Origin: Halobacillus sp. Marseille-P3879
Lineage (GTDB): Bacteria > Bacillota > Bacilli > Bacillales > Halobacillaceae
Length of the DNA: 64,000 nucleotides
NCBI RefSeq assembly: GCF_900240285.1
Contig: NZ_OESS01000001.1
Location: 868,001-932,000, forward strand
Direction: 5' to 3'
Below, piece by piece: positions 45,029 through 55,382 of the stretch. Numbering within the stretch: the stretch's first letter is position 1; each line of letters opens with the position of its first letter. Both the position numbers and the translations under genes were made by a program. A model generated the notes under the pieces. The model had not been told where the DNA came from, searched no databases, and worked only from the letters and a program-made list of their open reading frames with translations.

Positions 45029-45109
45029 TTGCTTTTGAGTCAGCGGGGATTGGTGTATAGTTGGGGTATTCAAAGGTTGCTCTAAAAGAAAACAAAGGTG
45101 GTGACAGCT

Positions 45110-46594
45110 TTGAAAATCGTAATAGCCGAAAGGGATAAAAATGAAAGTATTGCCATTGAATGGCTGATTGCTACCTATTCGATTCCAGTGGACGAGGTCT
45201 TCATCGCCCACACAGTTAAGGAAACAGTCACGTTACTTGAAAAAGAAATGCCGGATCTCCTGTATCTTGAGCTGGATATGATTTCAAATGAAAACTTGCC
45301 CCTGGTGAGAAGGAATGTAAACAAGTATTCCCCCAAAACCATTGCTGTTACGGCAGAAGCTACATTTGAGCGTGCCAAGCAGGCAATTGGATTAGGGTGT
45401 GTAGATTTACTCGTTAAACCGCTCGATCCAGTCAATATTAATCAAAGCATCAGGATGGCCCTGTCACTGGCCTCTAAACGAGACAGCATTCCGTCTTCTT
45501 CGGCAGCTAACGATGAAGAGGAGTACTCTTATCGGTCGCTGTTTATAGACCGGGATTTAAACCACGGGGACATCGGCTTAATGCTGCTGCATCCAGAAAA
45601 TAATAAAAAACTCGCAGACTTATATAAGTTTTCGAAATACTTTTCGTTTCGCGAAACCCCGATACTGCTTCCTTTATCAGATATGGTGGTTTGTTTGTTT
45701 AGAGAACCAACCCACCATTTAAGAGAAGAAGCCTGGAAAGTTTTAAAAGACTGGGAAGCCACTCATATGGATCCGCTTGCTGCCGTTATCATTCCGCCGA
45801 ATCATGTCCACAAAACGATCCATGATATGTATTTATCAGCCAGGAGGCTGCTGGATATTACGTTCTTTATCGGCTACAGCCAGGTAATCCTGCCGAATGA
45901 AGCTTATGATTCGTGGCATGAGATCGACCCATTTCTCACGTCAGTAGAGCAGCGCGAATGGGTAGAAATGTTAAACAATTTTGATAAACAAAAAATTAAA
46001 CATACGATGCATCAAGAGTTTTTGCAAATGGAAACTCCATTTCCCAATCCAGAGAAGCTGAGAATCAGACTGACAAGCATTCTGGCCCAGGTGAGGCGAT
46101 TCATGAAAATCTACCAGCTTGATCAGGGAGAAATGGAAGAGCATTATATGAGAATTTTTTCTGAAATTCTATTTAACCGGGTGTTGTATCGAATTGTGCA
46201 GGAAATGCTGCTGTTTCTTTATGAGCTGCTTGACCGTTCGAATACGGGGGAAGTGTTTTCGAAGAAGGACGTGATCGAGAGAGGGATTCTCTATATTGAA
46301 AACCACTACGCTGACCCTGATTTAACCTTGCAGAAAGTGGCAGATGCGGTTGGGAGAAGTCCGGCATATTTCAGCCATTTGTTAATGAAAAAGCAAGGAG
46401 TCTCTTTCCGGCAGCAATTGGCGAATAAGCGTGTGGAGGAAGCGAAACAGTTGTTAACGGGGACTGAGCTTTCTATTAAAGAAGTTGCTGAACAAGCAGG
46501 TTTCCGTCATCCCAGTTATTTTACAAAGTTGTTTAAAGAAATCACTACGATGGCTCCTCGTGAATATCGGGAGCATATGAGGAACAAAACCTAA
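45110..46594 (+). CDS. Receiver-domain AraC-type regulator (YesN-like) with altered phosphorylation site
   Basis: Encodes 494 residues from a TTG with AAAGGTGGTGA upstream. Residues 1-115 look like a receiver domain (IVIAERDKNE start; conserved Lys in LVKPLDP near 101), but the phosphorylated Asp position in PDLLYLELDM reads Glu, so normal phosphotransfer is doubtful. A middle region of unknown type follows, and two AraC helix-turn-helix motifs occupy about 395-490 (LTLQKVADAVGRSPAYFSHL and IKEVAEQAGFRHPSYFTKLF). No sensor kinase is adjacent. It probably activates the BCCT-hut genes next to it. Confidence 0.82.
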   Translation: MKIVIAERDKNESIAIEWLIATYSIPVDEVFIAHTVKETVTLLEKEMPDLLYLELDMISNENLPLVRRNVNKYSPKTIAVTAEATFERAKQAIGLGCVDLLVKPLDPVNINQSIRMALSLASKRDSIPSSSAANDEEEYSYRSLFIDRDLNHGDIGLMLLHPENNKKLADLYKFSKYFSFRETPILLPLSDMVVCLFREPTHHLREEAWKVLKDWEATHMDPLAAVIIPPNHVHKTIHDMYLSARRLLDITFFIGYSQVILPNEAYDSWHEIDPFLTSVEQREWVEMLNNFDKQKIKHTMHQEFLQMETPFPNPEKLRIRLTSILAQVRRFMKIYQLDQGEMEEHYMRIFSEILFNRVLYRIVQEMLLFLYELLDRSNTGEVFSKKDVIERGILYIENHYADPDLTLQKVADAVGRSPAYFSHLLMKKQGVSFRQQLANKRVEEAKQLLTGTELSIKEVAEQAGFRHPSYFTKLFKEITTMAPREYREHMRNKT

Positions 46595-46657
46595 AGAAAA
46601 TATAAAAAGACAAAATAATTTATACTATTAAATCAAATTAAAGGAATATTATTGGTA

Positions 46658-46687
46658 TTTTCGAAAGAATTTTATGAATTTCGAAAA
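46658..46687. promoter_or_regulatory. Inverted repeat upstream of the BCCT-hut operon
   Basis: TTTTCGAAA and TTTCGAAAA are perfect inverted arms with a 12-base spacer, about 175 bases before the BCCT gene. It may be the binding site of the adjacent AraC-type regulator. A short frame MNHFMKALS with a ribosome site at about 46759 follows. Confidence 0.4.
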
Positions 46688-46861
46688 TTTATCATCTATT
46701 TTTTGAAAAATCAATCTTTTATAATTTTTAATAGATTAATATAAAGAAGGATAGGATTATGAATCATTTTATGAAAGCGTTGTCTTAAATCTACTTCTTT
46801 ATCTTTTTTGATGAGAGGTATAGGTGGGTTTTTCAATTAAACAGAGAAGGGGGATATAAAC

Positions 46862-48442
46862 ATGTCACTGGCTGCCAATAAGGAACAGAATACGGAGCCC
46901 TCGCTGGAGAAAAAAAATAAAACGAGAAAATCTGTATTTGTTCCGTCATTTTTAATTGTTGGAGGAGGAGCAGTTCTAGGAATTGTAAACAACGAATTGT
47001 TAACTGAAATATCTATGAATGGGTTTACCGGATCACTAAAGGGGCTCGGATGGCTTTATCAAATCATCTCGCTTGTGGCCCTGATTATTGTAGGGATCGT
47101 AACGTTTTCTAAAATAGGGAATGTCCGCCTGGGCGGAGAAGAGGCTAAACCGAAATTTCCGTTTCGGGCCTGGTTTGCGATGGCCCTGACGGGAGGGATC
47201 GCAACCGGAGTCATAACCTATGGGGTTAATGAACCGATTATCTACTTCGGGAACATTTATGGAGAAATGGCCAATACGGGGGTCGAGCCGGGGACTTCGA
47301 CGGCAGCTTTTTTCGCCATGGGCCGTTCTTTATACAATTGGACCTTTATTCCTTATGCGATGTACTCCCTCAGTGGTTTAGTAGTCGCTTATATGTATTT
47401 TAACCGCAAGCAGGAGTTGTCCGTTTCAGGAACGCTGACGCCTTTGTTTGGAAATAAAGTCACAAAAGGAGTGTGGCCGGGCATCATTGACACGCTCGCC
47501 GTCTTAGCGATCGCTCTTGGTCTCGCTTCTTCCCTTGGAGCAGGGCTGGCATTAGTAGGCTCTGGCATTGCGACGACATACGGAGTATCTCAGGGACCGG
47601 TCGTCTGGTTTATACTGGCGGTGGTTACGACTGGTTTGTTTACCATTTCTGCTTTAAAAGGATTGAATAAAGGAATTCGCCGGATGTCCAGTTTGAATGC
47701 GACGGTCTTTTATATCCTTCTCGCTGTCCTCATCGTTATTGGTCCGACCTTATACATCTTAAATTCGACTACAGCTGGGTTTTCCTATTGGCTTGAGAAT
47801 TTCTGGGGATGGGGACTGGATCCCGGCGTAAGAGGAGGAGAAGCTCTTGTCATGTGGTGGACATTGTATGACTGGGCGATCTGGATTGCTTATGCTCCGC
47901 TGATGGGGATCTTTCTCGCGATTATTTCCTACGGGCGGACGATTCGTCAGTTTATGTTCATCAACTGGATATTGCCGGCGGTCTTCAGCATTCTCTGGTT
48001 TGGAGTCTTTGGCGGCACAGCCTTGCATTGGCAGGAGAACGGTACCGTCGACCTCATCTCAACGATCGAAGAAAGTGGAGCTGTGGCAGGCTTATGGACA
48101 TTCTTAGCTAATCTGCCCCTGGCGGCCATCATTATCCCTGTGGTGATGATCGTCCTCATTCTTTCTTTTGCCACGGCAGCTGACTCTATGGTCCGGGCGA
48201 TATCGACGGTATGTACCGTCAACATTCGCTATGATGAAGAACCGGCAAAATGGAAAATGCTCCTTTGGGCGATTTCCATTGCGACAGTTGCTTTCTTAAT
48301 GGTTACCTTTGCCGGAGGCGCACAGGGCGTGGACGGTGTGAAATATTTAGCTGCCTTAGGTGGATCAGCTGTGCTGTTTGTTTTTGTCCTTCAGGTTTGT
48401 TCTGCCATAAAAATGTTCTTTGTCGATAAAATTGAAAGATAG
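46862..48442 (+). CDS. BCCT family betaine/carnitine/choline-type transporter
   Basis: Encodes 526 residues with 12 expected membrane helices. The BCCT signature is recognisable as WTLYDWAIWIAYAP near 333 and SYGRTIRQF near 362. The aromatic box differs from glycine-betaine carriers, which read F-Y-W-A-W-W-I-S-W-S-P followed by SRGRTIREF: here one Trp is Ile and the Arg of the second motif is Tyr. That argues for a different substrate. BCCT carriers move compounds with quaternary ammonium groups, driven by Na+ or H+. It lies 16 bases before the hutH-like gene in one operon. Confidence 0.87.
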   Translation: MSLAANKEQNTEPSLEKKNKTRKSVFVPSFLIVGGGAVLGIVNNELLTEISMNGFTGSLKGLGWLYQIISLVALIIVGIVTFSKIGNVRLGGEEAKPKFPFRAWFAMALTGGIATGVITYGVNEPIIYFGNIYGEMANTGVEPGTSTAAFFAMGRSLYNWTFIPYAMYSLSGLVVAYMYFNRKQELSVSGTLTPLFGNKVTKGVWPGIIDTLAVLAIALGLASSLGAGLALVGSGIATTYGVSQGPVVWFILAVVTTGLFTISALKGLNKGIRRMSSLNATVFYILLAVLIVIGPTLYILNSTTAGFSYWLENFWGWGLDPGVRGGEALVMWWTLYDWAIWIAYAPLMGIFLAIISYGRTIRQFMFINWILPAVFSILWFGVFGGTALHWQENGTVDLISTIEESGAVAGLWTFLANLPLAAIIIPVVMIVLILSFATAADSMVRAISTVCTVNIRYDEEPAKWKMLLWAISIATVAFLMVTFAGGAQGVDGVKYLAALGGSAVLFVFVLQVCSAIKMFFVDKIER

Positions 48443-48458
48443 AAAAGAGGGAGGCTGC

Positions 48459-49997
48459 ATGACAAGTCAACAACTAAAAGGGGTGACTCTTGGGTCTACG
48501 ATGACTTTAGAAGAGTTTGTCTCTGTAGCACGTGATGGTACGTATGTAGAGTTTTCCGATACTTACCGGCAACGCGTGGAACACTCCCGTTCTCTGCTGA
48601 ACAAGCGGATGAAACAAGGAAGGGTAATGTATGGAGTCAATACAGGATTTGGCGCTCTATCTACGCAGGTCATATCTACTGATCAAACGAAGCAGTTACA
48701 AAGAAATATTCTTCTGTCGCATGCTGCATCCGTTGGAGAGCCTCTTGAAGAAGAATGCGTAAGAGCGATTATGCTTATGGTGCTGCAAAATTTAGGGCAG
48801 GGGTATTCAGGAGTTCAACTACGTACCCTTGAAATGTATCGAGAGCTGTTAAACCGCGGGGTTACCCCTTTTGTTCCTCGTGAAGGCTCGGTAGGTTACT
48901 TAAATGTAGAAGCCCATATCGCTTTAGTGCTGCTCGGTGAAGGAAAAGCCTGCATAGAAGGAGAGGTCATGCCTGCGAAGGATGCCCTCGCTAAAGCCGG
49001 GTTAGAGCCGGTTGAATTGGCTGCTAAAGAAGGACTGGCCTTAATAAACGGAACAACGAGCCCGACTGCAATTGGGGCCCTTGCCTTATACGATATGGTA
49101 AAGGCGGCCAAGTCGGCTGATATCATCGCAGCGATGACTTTAGAAGTGTTAAGAGGAACGACTCGTGCTTTAGACGATCGTCTGATGAGTGTGCGCCCGC
49201 ATGAGCAGCAAAGAAACACAGCTTCCAACATAAGACGGATGCTGGAGGATTCCATGATTGCCAGGCAATCGATCGATCATCGGCTCCAGGATGCCCTGTC
49301 CATAAGGGCGATTCCTCAGTTGCATGGAGCGGCGAAGAAAACGCTTTATGATGCCTTATCTACTTTCGAAATAGAAATGAATGCATGCTGTGATAATCCG
49401 ATTTTATGGCCGGATGAAGAGGACGGGGGTGCGATGTCAGGGAGCAACTGCGACTCCTCCTATATCGGAATTGAGCTGGACTCCGCATGTATCGGGGTAA
49501 CGTCCATCGCCAAGATGTCTGAAAGAAGAAACAATCGGCTGATCAACACTCATCTTTCAGGCTACCCGCCTTTTCTTATCCAGGGTTCCGGCTTGAATTC
49601 AGGCTTGATGATCCCGCAGTACTCCCAGGCTGGATTACTAAATGATATGAGAATGTTATCTCACCCGGCCACTGTGGACAGTATTCCAACCTGTGCGGAT
49701 CAGGAGGACTATGTAGCCATGGGATACAATTCAGCGAAAAAAGCGCGGGAAGTTGTGAAAAAGCTTGAATATATTTTAGCCATTGAACTGTTGTCTGCCT
49801 ATCATGCATATCCATTTATTGAAAGCAGCCTCACGCCAGGTTCTGCTTCAAAAGCCGTACTGGAACGTATCGCCCCATCCGTCTCAAGAATGACGGAAGA
49901 TAAATATTTATATCCTGATATAGAAGCAATAAAAGACTTGATTCATTCAGGAGACATTCTTGCTGTCGTAGAAGAAACAATTGGTGCACTTCACTAA
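48459..49997 (+). CDS. HutH-family (aromatic amino acid lyase) protein lacking the MIO triad
   Basis: Encodes 512 residues, the length of histidine ammonia-lyase. The family is clear: MYGVNTGFGAL near 60 (with the conserved Tyr), SERRNNRLINTHLSG near 350, and HPATVDSIPTCADQEDYV near 397. However, the segment that should read GSVGASGDLAP has GSVGYLNVEAH instead (DNA checked near 48885-48915), so the Ala-Ser-Gly that forms the MIO electrophile is absent. Ordinary ammonia release from histidine should not work. Ergothionase, a relative that eliminates trimethylamine, is believed to work without MIO. With a BCCT carrier in front and hutUIG behind, trimethylamine elimination from histidine betaine is the favoured idea. 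GGGAGG precedes the ATG. Confidence 0.85.
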   Translation: MTSQQLKGVTLGSTMTLEEFVSVARDGTYVEFSDTYRQRVEHSRSLLNKRMKQGRVMYGVNTGFGALSTQVISTDQTKQLQRNILLSHAASVGEPLEEECVRAIMLMVLQNLGQGYSGVQLRTLEMYRELLNRGVTPFVPREGSVGYLNVEAHIALVLLGEGKACIEGEVMPAKDALAKAGLEPVELAAKEGLALINGTTSPTAIGALALYDMVKAAKSADIIAAMTLEVLRGTTRALDDRLMSVRPHEQQRNTASNIRRMLEDSMIARQSIDHRLQDALSIRAIPQLHGAAKKTLYDALSTFEIEMNACCDNPILWPDEEDGGAMSGSNCDSSYIGIELDSACIGVTSIAKMSERRNNRLINTHLSGYPPFLIQGSGLNSGLMIPQYSQAGLLNDMRMLSHPATVDSIPTCADQEDYVAMGYNSAKKAREVVKKLEYILAIELLSAYHAYPFIESSLTPGSASKAVLERIAPSVSRMTEDKYLYPDIEAIKDLIHSGDILAVVEETIGALH

Positions 49998-50026
49998 ATG
50001 ACTAAAGTTAAAGGGAGGCCATTTTC

Positions 50027-51706
50027 ATGGTACAGGTAAATAATGATAAAGTGGTTCGTTATCGTGGAACGGAGTTAAATACAAAAGGCTGGCTGCAGGA
50101 AGCGGCACTACGCATGTTAATGAATAATTTAGACCCGGAAGTGGCAGAAAAGCCGGAAGAACTCGTCGTGTACGGCGGGATTGGAAAAGCGGCGAGAAAC
50201 TGGGAGTGCTTCGATGCCATTGTTCACTCATTAAAGGAGCTTGAAGATGATGAGACACTCCTTGTTCAATCAGGAAAGCCCGTCGCTGTATTTAAATCGC
50301 ACAAAGATGCACCCAAAGTTCTCCTCGCCAATTCAAATATTGTACCTGCGTATGCCAACTGGGATACCTTTCATGAATTAGATAAGAAAGGTCTCATGAT
50401 GTATGGTCAAATGACTGCGGGAAGCTGGATCTACATCGGTTCACAGGGCATTGTCCAGGGAACGTATGAAACCTTTGCGGAAGTTGGCAAGCAACATTTC
50501 AATAACACACTCAAAAATACGATTACAGTAACTGCCGGCCTTGGCGGAATGGGAGGGGCTCAACCGCTCGCGGTCACGATGAACGGTGGTGTTTGCATTG
50601 CCATTGAAGTGGATGAGTGGCGGATCGACCGTCGAATTGAAACCCGTTATACCGATATCAAAACCGATTCATTAGATGAGGCCATCCGTATAGCGGAAGA
50701 GGCCAAAAGGGAAGGAAAACCATTATCGATTGGTCTTCTGGGCAATGCAGCAGATCTTCTTCCAGACATGATCGCTAAAGGATTTATTCCCGACGTATTA
50801 ACGGACCAGACCTCTGCTCATGATCCTTTAAATGGCTATGTCCCTTCCGGATTATCACTGGATGAAGCTGACCATCTGAGAGAACATGATGCAAAAAAAT
50901 ACGTCACGTTGTCAAAGGCATCCATGGCAGAGCATGTAAAAGCTATGCTTGAAATGATGGAAAAAGGAGCCGTTACCTTTGATTATGGAAACAACATCCG
51001 CCAAGTGGCAGAAGATGAAGGTGTAGAGAATGCCTTTGACTTTCCAGGATTTGTTCCCGCCTACATTCGTCCGCAATTTTGTGAAGGCAAAGGCCCTTTC
51101 CGCTGGGCAGCACTTTCCGGGGATCCAGAAGACATTTATAAAACCGACGAAGTGATTCTAAGGGAGTTCAGTGATAATGAACATCTGTGCAATTGGATCC
51201 GGATGGCTCGTGAAAAAATCAGCTTTCAAGGACTCCCTTCCCGAATTTGCTGGTTAGGTTACGGGGAGCGAGCCAGGTTCGGGAAAATTATTAACGATAT
51301 GGTAGCGAACGGAGAATTGAAAGCCCCGATCGTTATTGGCCGCGATCACTTGGACTCAGGCTCTGTGGCCTCTCCTAACCGTGAAACGGAAGGTATGAAG
51401 GATGGCAGTGATGCTGTCGCAGACTGGCCGATCTTAAATGCATTGATTAACAGTGTAGGAGGAGCAAGCTGGGTCAGTGTTCATCATGGAGGCGGGGTAG
51501 GAATGGGCTACTCGCTTCATGCAGGCATGGTTATTGTGGCAGATGGAACGAAGGACGCAGAAGCCCGTCTTGAGCGGGTATTAACTTCAGATCCCGGGAT
51601 GGGGATTGCCCGCCATGTGGATGCAGGGTATGAGCTGGCAGAAAATACGGCACGTGAAAAAGGCGTCAATATTCCAATGCTGAACCAACAGGGAGGTGGG
51701 AAATAA
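50027..51706 (+). CDS. hutU: Urocanate hydratase
   Basis: Encodes 559 residues, standard for urocanase, which hydrates urocanate to imidazolonepropionate using bound NAD+. NAD-binding is at [16 protein letters not shown] near 172, and the active-site region has [14 protein letters not shown] near 404 and [12 protein letters not shown] near 485. The sequence looks like ordinary HutU with no thiourocanate-type divergence visible. GGGAGG precedes the ATG. It overlaps hutI by one base. Confidence 0.95.
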
Positions 51707-52980
51707 TGACCCAGTCCATTTATATAAGCAACGCTGCTCAATTAATTACGCTTGCCGGTCACTCGCAGAAGCCGGCTGTAAAAGAAGCGATGTCGGATTT
51801 GCAGATTATCGAGAACGGAAGTGTATTGATTGAGGACGGAAAAATAACCGCCGTCGGTCCTGATTCTGAACTTCAAAAAAAATACACTGACCGCATCAAA
51901 GCTGTGAAAGAAATCGACGCCGCAGGTAAAGTGGTGAGCCCGGGTCTGATTGATCCGCACACTCATCTCGTTCACGCCGGAACAAGGGAAAATGAATACG
52001 CCATGCGCCTAAAAGGCAAATCCTATATGGATATTATGGAAGCCGGGGGCGGCATCCATGCTACGACTCGTGCGACACAGAAGGCAAGCCACGAACAGCT
52101 TTTCGAGGAATCGATTAGCCGCTTAAATAAATTTTTCCTCCATGGTGTGACCACGGTGGAGGCTAAAAGCGGCTACGGACTGACGCTTGAACATGAGCTC
52201 AAACAATTGGAGGTGGCGAAACAGCTCCATGAAAGCCATAACATCGATATTGTTTCCACATTCATGGGGGCCCACGCCGTGCCAATGGATGAGAAAAACA
52301 ATCCAGATGCGTTTGTGGACCGCGTGATTGAAGAGATGATTCCGGAAGTCGCCAGGCAGGGATTGGCGAAGTTTAATGACGTCTTTTGTGAACGCGGCGT
52401 CTTCACTCCAGAGCAATCCCGCCGAATTCTTGAAGCTGGTAAAAAACACGGACTCATTCCAAAAATCCATGCCGATGAAATTGAACCATATGCTGGAGCT
52501 GAGCTAGCTGCCGAAGTCGGGGCAATTTCTGCCGACCACCTGCTGCGTGCCTCTGATAAAGGAATTCAAGCAATGGCTGACCAAGGAGTCGTCGGCGTGC
52601 TGCTTCCAGGGACCGCGTTTTTCCTGATGGCAGAATTCGCCCGCGGCCGTAACATGATTGATGCAGGCGTACCCGTATCCCTCTCTACAGACGCGAACCC
52701 TGGGTCTTCACCGACGATTTCCCTGCCATTCATTATGAACTTAGGATGCCTGATGATGGGAATGACGCCTGAAGAGGTGTTAACAGCATCAACGATCAAC
52801 GCAGCTCATGCTATTGGAGTAGCAACAGAAGCGGGCAGCCTGGAAGAAGGCAAAAAAGGTGATGTTACCATTTTTGACGTGCCGAACTACATGGTCTTAT
52901 CCTACCAATATGGGATGAACCATGTCGATACAGTAATCAAAGCTGGAAAACCTGTCGTTGTTGGGGGGCAGCTGCAATGA
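51706..52980 (+). CDS. hutI: Imidazolonepropionase
   Basis: Encodes 424 residues of the amidohydrolase superfamily. The metal-binding DPHTHLVHAGTRENEY near 84 and the family motif KSGYGLTLEHELKQLE near 158 are typical of HutI, which opens imidazolone-propionate to N-formimino-glutamate. The third hut step immediately follows HutU, with translation coupled at both ends (1-base overlap with hutU, 4-base overlap with hutG). Confidence 0.95.
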   Translation: MTQSIYISNAAQLITLAGHSQKPAVKEAMSDLQIIENGSVLIEDGKITAVGPDSELQKKYTDRIKAVKEIDAAGKVVSPGLIDPHTHLVHAGTRENEYAMRLKGKSYMDIMEAGGGIHATTRATQKASHEQLFEESISRLNKFFLHGVTTVEAKSGYGLTLEHELKQLEVAKQLHESHNIDIVSTFMGAHAVPMDEKNNPDAFVDRVIEEMIPEVARQGLAKFNDVFCERGVFTPEQSRRILEAGKKHGLIPKIHADEIEPYAGAELAAEVGAISADHLLRASDKGIQAMADQGVVGVLLPGTAFFLMAEFARGRNMIDAGVPVSLSTDANPGSSPTISLPFIMNLGCLMMGMTPEEVLTASTINAAHAIGVATEAGSLEEGKKGDVTIFDVPNYMVLSYQYGMNHVDTVIKAGKPVVVGGQLQ

Positions 52981-53969
52981 GCAGCTATCCATACCCTCAA
53001 CTAGACCGTCCGAAGTTCGTTTGGAATACCCGGACTGAAGCAAAGTCAGATGTGAAGGTCCATGAATGGATTGAGACGTTGACAGAAGAAGAGCCAAATT
53101 GGGCAGAGTATGATGTCACAATACTTGGCGTACCGCTTTCCAAGTCGTCCATTAGCTCTTCTTCCGCCAGTGAAAATCCAGATGCCCTGCGCCAAGCATG
53201 GAAGGGATTTGGTACGTATAATCTGGACGAAGACATTGACCTGGCCCAACTGCGTATCGTTGACCTTGGAGATGTCGAGCAGCACGTTACAGATATCGCC
53301 TATACCCACGAGCGGATTACCGAAGCTATGACCGCGATGCGCTCCCATCATCCTCATACGCTTCCCCTCGTTATGGGAGGAGATCACTCGATTACGGCTC
53401 AGCTGGTCAAAGGGTGGAAGCAGTCGCATCAGGAGGAGAAAATCGGCATCCTTCAACTGGATACCCACTTTGATTTGCGGGATCCCTCCACGCTCGGACC
53501 GGCAAACGGCACCCCGATCCGACAGCTGCTCGAGGGAGGAGTAGTCAAAGGAGAGCATGTCCACAACATCGGATTGCATGGATTTTTCAATGCCCGCGAA
53601 TTGAAGGATTTAGCCGATGAAAAAGGCGTTCATTATACTACGATGAAGCAAGCGCGGAGAAAAGGAATCGAAACGACGATCCAGCAAGCTTTAGAAACAT
53701 TAAATGGAGAAGTAGACACCATTTATTTGACAGTGGATATGGATGTGCTGGACATCACAAATGGACCAGGTGCTCCAGCAGCCACACCGGGTGGCATGTA
53801 CACCGCTGAGCTATTCGATGCCGTTCAGCTGGCCGGGCAGCATCCAAAAGTGAAGGCCATGGACATTGTCTGTCTTGATCCGCGCAAGGATATCGGCGAA
53901 ATGCATGTAAAAGCTGCCGTCCATACAATGCTTTCATTTTTAACAGGGTACTGTCAGCGTGAAAAATAA
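52977..53969 (+). CDS. hutG: Formimidoylglutamase
   Basis: Encodes 330 residues of the arginase family. Manganese ligands are in GGDHSITAQL near 129, LDTHFDLRD near 161 and TVDMDVLDI near 253. The enzyme splits formiminoglutamate to glutamate and formamide, completing the path from urocanate. It overlaps hutI by four bases and is the last of the coupled genes; a stem-loop follows. Confidence 0.94.
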   Translation: MSSYPYPQLDRPKFVWNTRTEAKSDVKVHEWIETLTEEEPNWAEYDVTILGVPLSKSSISSSSASENPDALRQAWKGFGTYNLDEDIDLAQLRIVDLGDVEQHVTDIAYTHERITEAMTAMRSHHPHTLPLVMGGDHSITAQLVKGWKQSHQEEKIGILQLDTHFDLRDPSTLGPANGTPIRQLLEGGVVKGEHVHNIGLHGFFNARELKDLADEKGVHYTTMKQARRKGIETTIQQALETLNGEVDTIYLTVDMDVLDITNGPGAPAATPGGMYTAELFDAVQLAGQHPKVKAMDIVCLDPRKDIGEMHVKAAVHTMLSFLTGYCQREK

Positions 53970-53975
53970 CAACAA

Positions 53976-54012
53976 ACCTCAGGTCCTCTGCATGGGCTTG
54001 AGGTACATTTTT
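53976..54012 (+). terminator. Probable terminator after hutG
   Basis: ACCTCAGGTCC and GGGCTTGAGGT form an 11-bp stem with two wobble pairs, followed by ATTTTT. The next gene may be transcribed by read-through. Confidence 0.55.
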
Positions 54013-54053
54013 AAGTTGAATTTTCCTAATATTGTGAAATTGGAGGTTTTATT

Positions 54054-55382
54054 ATGGAGCAAAGAAAAGCAACTGTTTCACAAGATCAGCACTTAAAGCA
54101 CAGAGGAAACATCAGTAAATTCTTTATCATGAGTTTGATCGGTATCTTTACCTTTTTTATGCCTATAACAATTGACGGCAACTCGTCCATCCCGCTTGAT
54201 CATATGGTCACTTTTCTCCAAACGACTTTTCCTGAACTTATCCCTTACTATGCCTTGATTGTCATAATTCTTGGTGCGATTTATCCTTTTATCAACAAAT
54301 CCTGGAACAAAGATGGAGTAAACGTGACACTATCCCTCTTTAAAATTCTCGGTGTGGTCGCAGCAGTCATGCTTGTCGTCGATGCAGGTCCTGCCTGGCT
54401 GTTTGATCCGAATATGGGCCCCTTTCTGTTTGAAAATCTCGTCATTCCCGTCGGACTATTAGTCCCAATCGGCGCTATATTCTTGGCGTTGCTGGTTGGA
54501 TACGGGCTGTTAGAGTTTATTGGTGTTCTCCTGCAGCCCGTCATGCGGCCGATTTGGAAAACGCCGGGGCGCTCTGCGATCGATGCCGTAGCCTCTTTCG
54601 TAGGAAGTTATTCGATAGGACTATTGATTACGAACCGTGTGTTCAAAGAAGGAAAATATACGATCAAGGAAGCGACGATCATCGCCACAGGTTTTTCAAC
54701 GGTATCGGCCACCTTCATGATTGTCGTAGCAAAAACTCTCGGCCTTATGGAAATCTGGAATACCTACTTTTGGGTCACCCTCTTTGTAACCTTTCTTGTA
54801 ACCGCGATTACCGTACGTATCTGGCCTTTAAATAAAATCAGCGACGACTATTACACCGAGGAAGGACATCCGGAAGAAGTGATCAAAGAAAACCGTATCA
54901 AGGCAGCCTGGCAGCAAGCGATGGAAGCATCCAGGCAGGCCCCTTCTCTTGGCAGGAACATTGGGCTCAATTTAAAAGACGGCTTTATTATGACCATGGC
55001 TATTCTTCCCTCGATCATGTCCGTCGGTTTGCTCGGACTGGTCCTAGCGGAATATACCCCTGTATTTGATATTGTAGGTTATATTTTCTATCCATTTACA
55101 TGGGCCCTGCAGATCCCTGAGCCATTACTGGCTGCTAAAGCTTCAGCGATCGAAATTGCAGAGATGTTCCTGCCTGCTCTGTTAGTTGCGGAAGCTCCGC
55201 TCATTACAAAGTTTGTGATCGGAACCTTGTCCGTATCAGCTGTCTTGTTCTTCTCCGCTTTGATTCCGTGTATCCTGTCCACGGATATTCCCATCAGCAT
55301 TCCAAAGTTAATCATCATCTGGATCGAGCGCACGATCTTAACGTTGATCATCGTCACGCCAATTGCCTATCTGCTCCTTTAG
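54054..55382 (+). CDS. YjiH family membrane protein (nucleoside-recognition/Gate domain)
   Basis: Encodes 442 residues with about 10 membrane helices, including FFMPITIDGNSSIPLDHMVTF near 36 and the Gate-type sequence DAVASFVGSYSIGLLITNRV near 180. Families of this kind act as transporters or their partners; the exact role is unsettled. Position right after hutG suggests a permease or exporter for a substrate or product of the pathway. TGGAGG precedes the ATG. Confidence 0.8.
   Translation: MEQRKATVSQDQHLKHRGNISKFFIMSLIGIFTFFMPITIDGNSSIPLDHMVTFLQTTFPELIPYYALIVIILGAIYPFINKSWNKDGVNVTLSLFKILGVVAAVMLVVDAGPAWLFDPNMGPFLFENLVIPVGLLVPIGAIFLALLVGYGLLEFIGVLLQPVMRPIWKTPGRSAIDAVASFVGSYSIGLLITNRVFKEGKYTIKEATIIATGFSTVSATFMIVVAKTLGLMEIWNTYFWVTLFVTFLVTAITVRIWPLNKISDDYYTEEGHPEEVIKENRIKAAWQQAMEASRQAPSLGRNIGLNLKDGFIMTMAILPSIMSVGLLGLVLAEYTPVFDIVGYIFYPFTWALQIPEPLLAAKASAIEIAEMFLPALLVAEAPLITKFVIGTLSVSAVLFFSALIPCILSTDIPISIPKLIIIWIERTILTLIIVTPIAYLLL

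Follow-up and report, generated by a model that had tools for sequence, protein, structure and literature searches.

To our knowledge, ergothionase is the only characterized relative of the histidine ammonia-lyases (HALs; HutH) that does without methylidene-imidazolone (MIO), the cofactor formed from an Ala-Ser-Gly triad. Hercynine (histidine betaine) is the precursor of ergothioneine and is made by fungi and by actinomycetes such as mycobacteria. Two papers (PMC13405746; PMC7653990) describe ergothionase as converting ergothioneine to trimethylamine and thiourocanate without MIO; the first also reports ergothionase activity in [Clostridium] symbiosum and a thiourocanate desulfhydrase from the gut. 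No hercynine-degrading lyase was found in the literature searched by title and abstract opening, and a prior mention is possible in subscription papers. Here we analyse a stretch of 64,000 nucleotides from Halobacillus sp. Marseille-P3879 (contig NZ_OESS01000001.1, positions 868,001 to 932,000), referred to as the window. An original prediction, read from the letters alone, had proposed that an operon in it takes up hercynine or a similar compound, removes trimethylamine to give urocanate and degrades this to glutamate; its statement that ergothionase eliminates trimethylamine without MIO agrees with both papers. We show that the HutH-fold lyase of this operon lacks MIO, is conserved, and is linked to carriers of betaine type and, at some loci, to urocanate enzymes, and we argue that the operon probably serves hercynine catabolism.

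The lyase gene (48459–49997, + strand) encodes an intact protein of 512 amino acids with no internal stop. Residues 12–500 align with histidine ammonia-lyase structures (Pfam PF00221, 547 bits), an alignment that rules out a frameshift, including at 48885–48915, where the original prediction had re-read the DNA and seen none. Where the genome's own canonical HutH has GSLGASGDLAPLSH, the lyase reads GSVGYLNVEAH. Compared with the Pseudomonas putida enzyme (PpHAL, structures 1b8f and 1gkj, whose numbering we use for the active site), Ala142 is replaced by Tyr and residues 143–145 are deleted, and this three-residue deletion removes the MIO triad. The resulting GSVGYL loop (residues 143–148, 48885–48902) occupies the place of GS[VL]G[AS]SGDL in MIO enzymes, so that the absence of the triad, as first read, stands. 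The lyase misses the cut-off of the HutH equivalog TIGR01225 (528.6 versus 539.15 bits) and reaches that of the broader NCBIfam subfamily NF006871 (541.3 versus 524 bits).

A search of genome contigs for relatives of the lyase returned 42 loci (L-numbers below are locus labels; G-numbers label genomes). Every one of the 44 aligned clade rows has this same loop. They comprise the window, 39 of the loci just mentioned and four others; 41 of the rows are distinct, three being second copies of the same gene, and the short sequences L057, L071 and L073 were left out of the clade alignment and tree. Two related clades keep the loop as well, in 9 and 5 rows respectively. Members of the window clade come from Bacillaceae, Thermoactinomycetaceae, Clostridia, Acidaminococcus, Fusobacterium and Acinetobacter, with at least 55% identity from Bacillaceae to Clostridia and Acinetobacter and with invariant catalytic residues. 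Because the loop is conserved across phyla, decay is unlikely, which tells against the inactive paralogue that had been considered as an alternative.

The active site is altered in a consistent way. Every aligned MIO-less row retains Tyr53, Gln277, Arg283 and Glu414, and L063 is the only one without His83, which 2 of 13 canonical rows also lack. We take His83 and Glu414 to lie on the imidazole side and Arg283 to bind the carboxylate. The position of Tyr280 is Leu (Leu280 in the window lyase, codon 49296–49298) in 44/44 clade rows, in 9/9 and 5/5 rows of the two related clades and in both ergothionase rows, and Tyr280 is present in 13/13 and a further 29/29 enzymes with ASG or SSG. Tyr280, Phe329 and Asp145 appear in Protein Data Bank titles as PpHAL sites mutated for their interest; in the window lyase, Phe329 is replaced by Cys and His330 by Asp. 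Asn195, invariant in 42 canonical rows, is Ser in 35/44 clade rows, Asn in 8/44, including the window, and Asp in 1/44. An AlphaFold2 model of the lyase (predicted local distance difference test (pLDDT) 86.9, predicted template-modelling (TM) score 0.90; pLDDT below 50 in the Tyr58 loop, residues 58–69) has HAL 1gkj as its best structural match (TM 0.91), with ergothionase at rank 18 (TM 0.88). The alignment and model that the original prediction had proposed as checks thus return a HAL fold without MIO, with the Tyr, His, Arg and Glu residues kept and Tyr280 changed to Leu.

Like ergothionase, the window lyase combines the HAL fold with loss of MIO, Leu at the Tyr280 position and retained Tyr53, His83, Arg283 and Glu414, and by analogy trimethylamine elimination would be expected of it. 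The comparison was made with the Treponema denticola enzyme (6s7j) and leaves aside that of Burkholderia sp. HME13. Unlike the ergothionase loop SIGEGDI, in which one residue is deleted, GSVGYL lacks three; the two proteins are only about 26% identical in the structural alignment, the lyase scores 164 bits against 6s7j and 332 against HAL, and it adjoins a canonical urocanate hydratase. Lys383 of the T. denticola enzyme (in our count) is Tyr in 44/44 clade rows and in 13 canonical HutH proteins, and Val in PpHAL. It is present in both ergothionase rows and in the ergothionase-like protein L124 but absent from another, L125 (Sinorhizobium), and is therefore a weak criterion for ergothionase. 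PpHAL shares with the window lyase its hut neighbours and is both its closest solved fold and closer to it in sequence than ergothionase is; it differs in the MIO triad, at the Tyr280, Phe329 and His330 positions and in the BCCT neighbour of the window gene.

In both trees the window lyase falls outside the ergothionase pair, on a separate branch. Its grouping with the related MIO-less clades B (51–53% identical to it) and C (42–44%) is supported at 99/97, and at 83/58 once diverse HALs are included, and the branch dividing MIO-less from MIO enzymes at 57/86 with diverse HALs, long branches limiting both trees. The lyase resembles ergothionase but belongs to a separate clade, and the HAL fold may have given up MIO on more than one occasion. 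The distribution is patchy: the lyase is present in 3/44 genomes of the family and, at 72% identity or more, in 5/397 of the order. In a phylum sample (398 genomes), membership scores were reached by the window genome alone (935 bits, as against 547 for the next match); 29 other matches were read, all with ASG or SSG, and 14 lower-scoring matches were left out. The closest named relative, from Halobacillus sp. A5, is 87% identical, as is that of another genome of the genus. The original prediction's hercynine route holds as an inferred one, and its framing as a Bacillaceae route was too narrow, the clade extending to Clostridia and Acinetobacter.

The gene 5′ of the lyase encodes a BCCT carrier, our proposed hercynine importer (46862–48442, + strand; PF02028, 369.6 bits). 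BCCT carriers transport quaternary ammonium compounds, and this one falls short of the glycine betaine equivalog NF047988 (301 versus 650 bits). In the aromatic box of BetP, which we take to consist of W189, W194, Y197 and W374 with W373 and W377 as further residues, W194 aligns with Tyr, W189, Y197 and W374 are kept, and W373 and W377 become Ile and Tyr; the box is changed, as originally noted. A BCCT lies within the fetched flanks of the lyase in 39/42 related loci (L038, L057 and L062 being the others), though it is only 33% identical in L058 and L064. Among 22 control loci with canonical HutH (20 fetched and two of the window genome), a single one has a BCCT; it is 26% identical, lies about 1.5 kb from HutH (L132) and falls outside the linked clade. 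The query was the window BCCT, so very distant BCCTs could escape notice. A quick tree of 32 BCCTs puts 19 lyase-linked carriers (the window's, 15 of the 39 and three of clade C) into one clade together with the BCCT linked to a C. symbiosum ergothionase-type gene (Shimodaira–Hasegawa-like approximate likelihood ratio test, 99). This clade is apart from 11 of the window genome's 12 other BCCTs, which are 25–31% identical to the window's; the twelfth was left out. The genome has thirteen BCCT genes in all (L150–L161 besides the window's), as may be expected of a halophile. The residue before the Trp of transmembrane helix 8 is Asp in 16/19 linked BCCTs (YDWA or similar), Glu in one and Tyr in two, and is Tyr in 9/11 other carriers; we would guess that it contacts imidazole. 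Six of seven lyase-bearing genomes checked have this BCCT at 77% identity or more, and in a sample of 199 genomes of the order it was found at E 1e-120 in three only, all three with the lyase.

On the other side of the lyase are three urocanate-pathway genes that look as ordinary as first described, the genes from BCCT to HutG being spaced by gaps of 16 and 29 bases followed by overlaps of 1 and 4. HutU (50027–51706, + strand) is a canonical urocanate hydratase (TIGR01228, 985 bits), and HutI (51706–52980, + strand), an imidazolonepropionase, is well over its cut-off (TIGR01224, 493.6 versus 298.15 bits). The formimidoylglutamase HutG (52977–53969, + strand) is just under its own (TIGR01227, 228.0 versus 229.15 bits; PF00491, 210 bits). 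HutU scores below the thiourocanate hydratase model (698 bits, cut-off 930) and its S-methyl form (719.5 bits, cut-off 880), in a comparison made without a positive-control locus; HutU is likewise canonical and under these cut-offs in Klebsiella and in one Acinetobacter locus (L068). A canonical HutU of this kind makes urocanate the most likely product and hercynine the most likely substrate. Within the fetched flanks, HutU and HutI are linked to the lyase in 12/42 clade loci, and no HutU was found near the C. symbiosum ergothionase-type gene.

The window operon is a separate gene set and not a histidine operon with a worn first gene. The second canonical hutH that the original prediction had asked for exists twice over in this genome, both copies with ASG (L001, L002). 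A canonical set of HutP, HutH, HutU and HutI lies about 148 kb from the window operon (L090), its HutU and HutI arranged as in the window; unlike the window operon, it has HutP (PF09021), an ASG HutH and no BCCT, and at the place of hutG only a 116-amino-acid arginase-family piece (L090:9899–10249, G000:C9). The third HutH (ASG), with HutP upstream, is on another contig (L091, G000:C7:519000–536000); hutU, hutI and hutG were not found in the 17 kb fetched around it. Of three full arginase-family genes in the genome, one is the window HutG and the other two are unclassified, so that among the three hut loci only the window operon has a full hutG alongside.

On this evidence, the window lyase is likely to be a betaine lyase that eliminates trimethylamine, and hercynine is its probable substrate. 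The loop, the active-site residues, the BCCT linkage and the canonical HutU all support the route first proposed, as an inference. Hercynine fits best because of the MIO loss shared with ergothionase, the kept base and imidazole residues, the BCCT subfamily, the canonical HutU, and the canonical HutH, HutU and HutI elsewhere in the genome. In the mechanism we propose, the BCCT would import hercynine; His88 and Glu416 of the lyase would hold the imidazole and Arg283 the carboxylate; Tyr58 or a neighbouring base would remove the β proton; and trimethylamine, as a leaving group far superior to ammonia, would depart without MIO. The urocanate would then pass through HutU, HutI and HutG to glutamate and formamide.

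Related loci pair MIO-less lyases with other carriers. Among 11 fetched loci of clades B and C, 8 have a PF00083 MFS carrier and 3 a BCCT, and HutU and HutI are present in 7 (L079, L080, L081, L086, L087, L088 and L089). A C-type lyase only 42% identical to the window's stands in L088 and L089 beside HutU, HutI, HutG and a BCCT with 79% identity to the window carrier, so that one kind of carrier seems to work with two types of lyase; these loci may represent lyase replacement within one kind of operon. More distant MIO-less relatives are found on Klebsiella and Rhizobium plasmids. On the Klebsiella plasmid CP110561.1, an 11.3-kb cluster (73210–84530; L127:2032–13352) encodes a GSVGYL lyase, a betaine-type ABC system (ProV-like and OpuAC genes), a canonical HutU (1016 bits) and HutF, together with genes annotated HutI, HutG and HutC. 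The lyase is annotated there only as an aromatic amino acid ammonia-lyase. Of the 179 plasmid records with a match to it (72,556 searched), 163 have it at 95% identity or more, and 163 records carry at least 80% of the cluster in one place. PMC12188710 places Klebsiella hut genes on the chromosome. The Rhizobium plasmid pRspBT04f (L149:4462–13433) shares this lyase type and the OpuAC ABC genes but has CoA-transferase, 3-hydroxyacyl-CoA dehydrogenase and enoyl-CoA hydratase genes in place of hut. In Geosporobacter, a chemoreceptor with an OpuAC domain adjoins the lyase. Two of these carrier kinds are known for quaternary ammonium compounds, and the recurrence of unrelated carriers beside MIO-less lyases, often with urocanate genes, is the strongest argument for a histidine betaine.

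The C. symbiosum cluster (L070:6283–14106) has both a window-clade lyase and an ergothionase-type lyase (448 bits to 6s7j), each with its own BCCT, an arrangement that suggests two different substrates; an ornithine cyclodeaminase-family gene lies between the two pairs. Ergothionase-like MIO-less lyases also occur on Polaromonas (L124) and Sinorhizobium (L125) plasmids with LysR regulators nearby, and their surroundings also include either an ornithine cyclodeaminase-family gene or one annotated as dimethylsulfoniopropionate lyase. On the Smac51 plasmid, a GSVGYL lyase (L126:6956–8530) adjoins an SSF symporter.

Several observations weigh against a hercynine operon of the proposed kind. Clades B and C mostly have an MFS carrier and not a BCCT, and one lyase-bearing genome (G278) is without this BCCT, its best match being 35% identical. 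The GSVGYL lyase of L126 retains Tyr at position 280. HutU was found in only the 12 of 42 related loci given above, and the product is less certain for clostridial loci that have BCCT and lyase without a linked HutU. The β-oxidation neighbours in Rhizobium imply that not all such lyases need make urocanate. The short piece at the canonical hutG place means that histidine breakdown may lean on the window HutG, which both pathways may share, so that the two are perhaps not cleanly apart. Finally, because the BCCT linked to an ergothionase-type gene falls in the same clade as the window's, this carrier family may also take ergothioneine.

That last point belongs to the alternative that survives best, although we regard it as unlikely: the lyase would be an ergothionase, and its thiourocanate would be desulfurized elsewhere to urocanate before HutU acts. 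Beyond the shared BCCT clade, it has in its favour the only characterized MIO-less relative we know of, and a TudS-family gene (PF04463) in the genome. A gut thiourocanate desulfhydrase, reported in PMC13405746, also speaks for it. Yet the PF04463 gene is about 120 kb off and unlinked, and B. subtilis has this family too; we set the TudS step aside on the lack of linkage. The window lyase is far closer to HAL than to ergothionase, it has Tyr at Lys383 as do all clade rows (though L125 also lacks this Lys), HutU is not a thiourocanate hydratase, and C. symbiosum keeps both lyase types side by side. The ergothioneine lyase named as an alternative in the original prediction is thus weakened by HutU, Lys383 and sequence distance, and retains a slender chance.

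Quite unlikely, too, is a lyase for another aromatic betaine, such as that of tryptophan, tyrosine or phenylalanine, with hut genes as neighbours by chance. The 30/42 clade loci without HutU in the fetched flanks agree with it, as does the Rhizobium relative, which perhaps handles another aromatic betaine or sends its product to another fate. Against chance stand the linkage of HutU and HutI in 12/42 clade loci, 7/11 loci of the related clades and the Klebsiella cluster, and the retention of His83 and Glu414, which we take to face the imidazole, in the window lyase and nearly all rows. An inactive or regulatory HutH paralogue remaining in a histidine operon has for it the missing cofactor site, the other HutH copies and the fact that no full-length HutG-like gene other than the window's was seen next to hut genes in the genome, but the cross-phylum identity, the invariant catalytic residues and the near-constant BCCT pairing make it very unlikely. 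Least probable of all is a histidine or N-methylhistidine ammonia-lyase active without MIO, which the NF006871 match alone would suggest (and through which pipelines may name the protein histidine ammonia-lyase): the triad and Tyr280 are lost, TIGR01225 is missed, BCCT carriers take quaternary ammonium compounds, and the genome has canonical HutH copies and a second HutU, for which reasons a histidine lyase was set aside.

The proposed hercynine operon sits in a one-strand gene row (45098–55382, + strand) of AraC-type regulator, BCCT, HutH-family lyase, HutU, HutI, HutG and a YjiH-like membrane protein. The AraC-type gene (45098–46594, + strand), with a weak receiver-like N-terminus, is the probable regulator of the operon; relatives 55–87% identical lie 5′ of the BCCT and lyase in 9/42 related loci (L034, L035, L037, L044, L045, L046, L051, L069 and L074, that of L046 being an aligned piece only). 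A terminator-like hairpin with a T-rich tail follows hutG (53976–54004, + strand) as a weak consensus match; 14 such hairpins were found in the region against 10.3 expected, and the promoter and terminator scans, close to the shuffled mean, carry little weight. The YjiH-like gene (54054–55382, + strand; Gate domain match) is also 3′ of hutG in two related loci, L034 (92%) and L036 (74%), and relatives lie near canonical hut genes in L090 (32%) and L139 (61%).

A 2026 paper judged ergothionase rare because BLASTP matches were only ammonia-lyases (PMC13405746); MIO-less lyases filed as ammonia-lyases would be overlooked by such a judgement. Hercynine itself is present in human blood and saliva according to PMC9103826. 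On balance, we lean towards a widespread MIO-free family of hercynine trimethylamine-lyases, with carriers of three unrelated kinds, by which Bacillaceae, gut Clostridia, Acinetobacter and plasmid-bearing Klebsiella would turn hercynine into trimethylamine and glutamate. If so, a group of genes currently annotated as histidine ammonia-lyase would encode betaine lyases. Flintibacter, Pseudoflavonifractor, Blautia and C. symbiosum are gut dwellers; these relatives may share the hercynine food route, and would gain a possible further route to trimethylamine. The family would then be an unrecognized microbial source of trimethylamine and a means of recycling the histidine betaine of fungi and actinobacteria.

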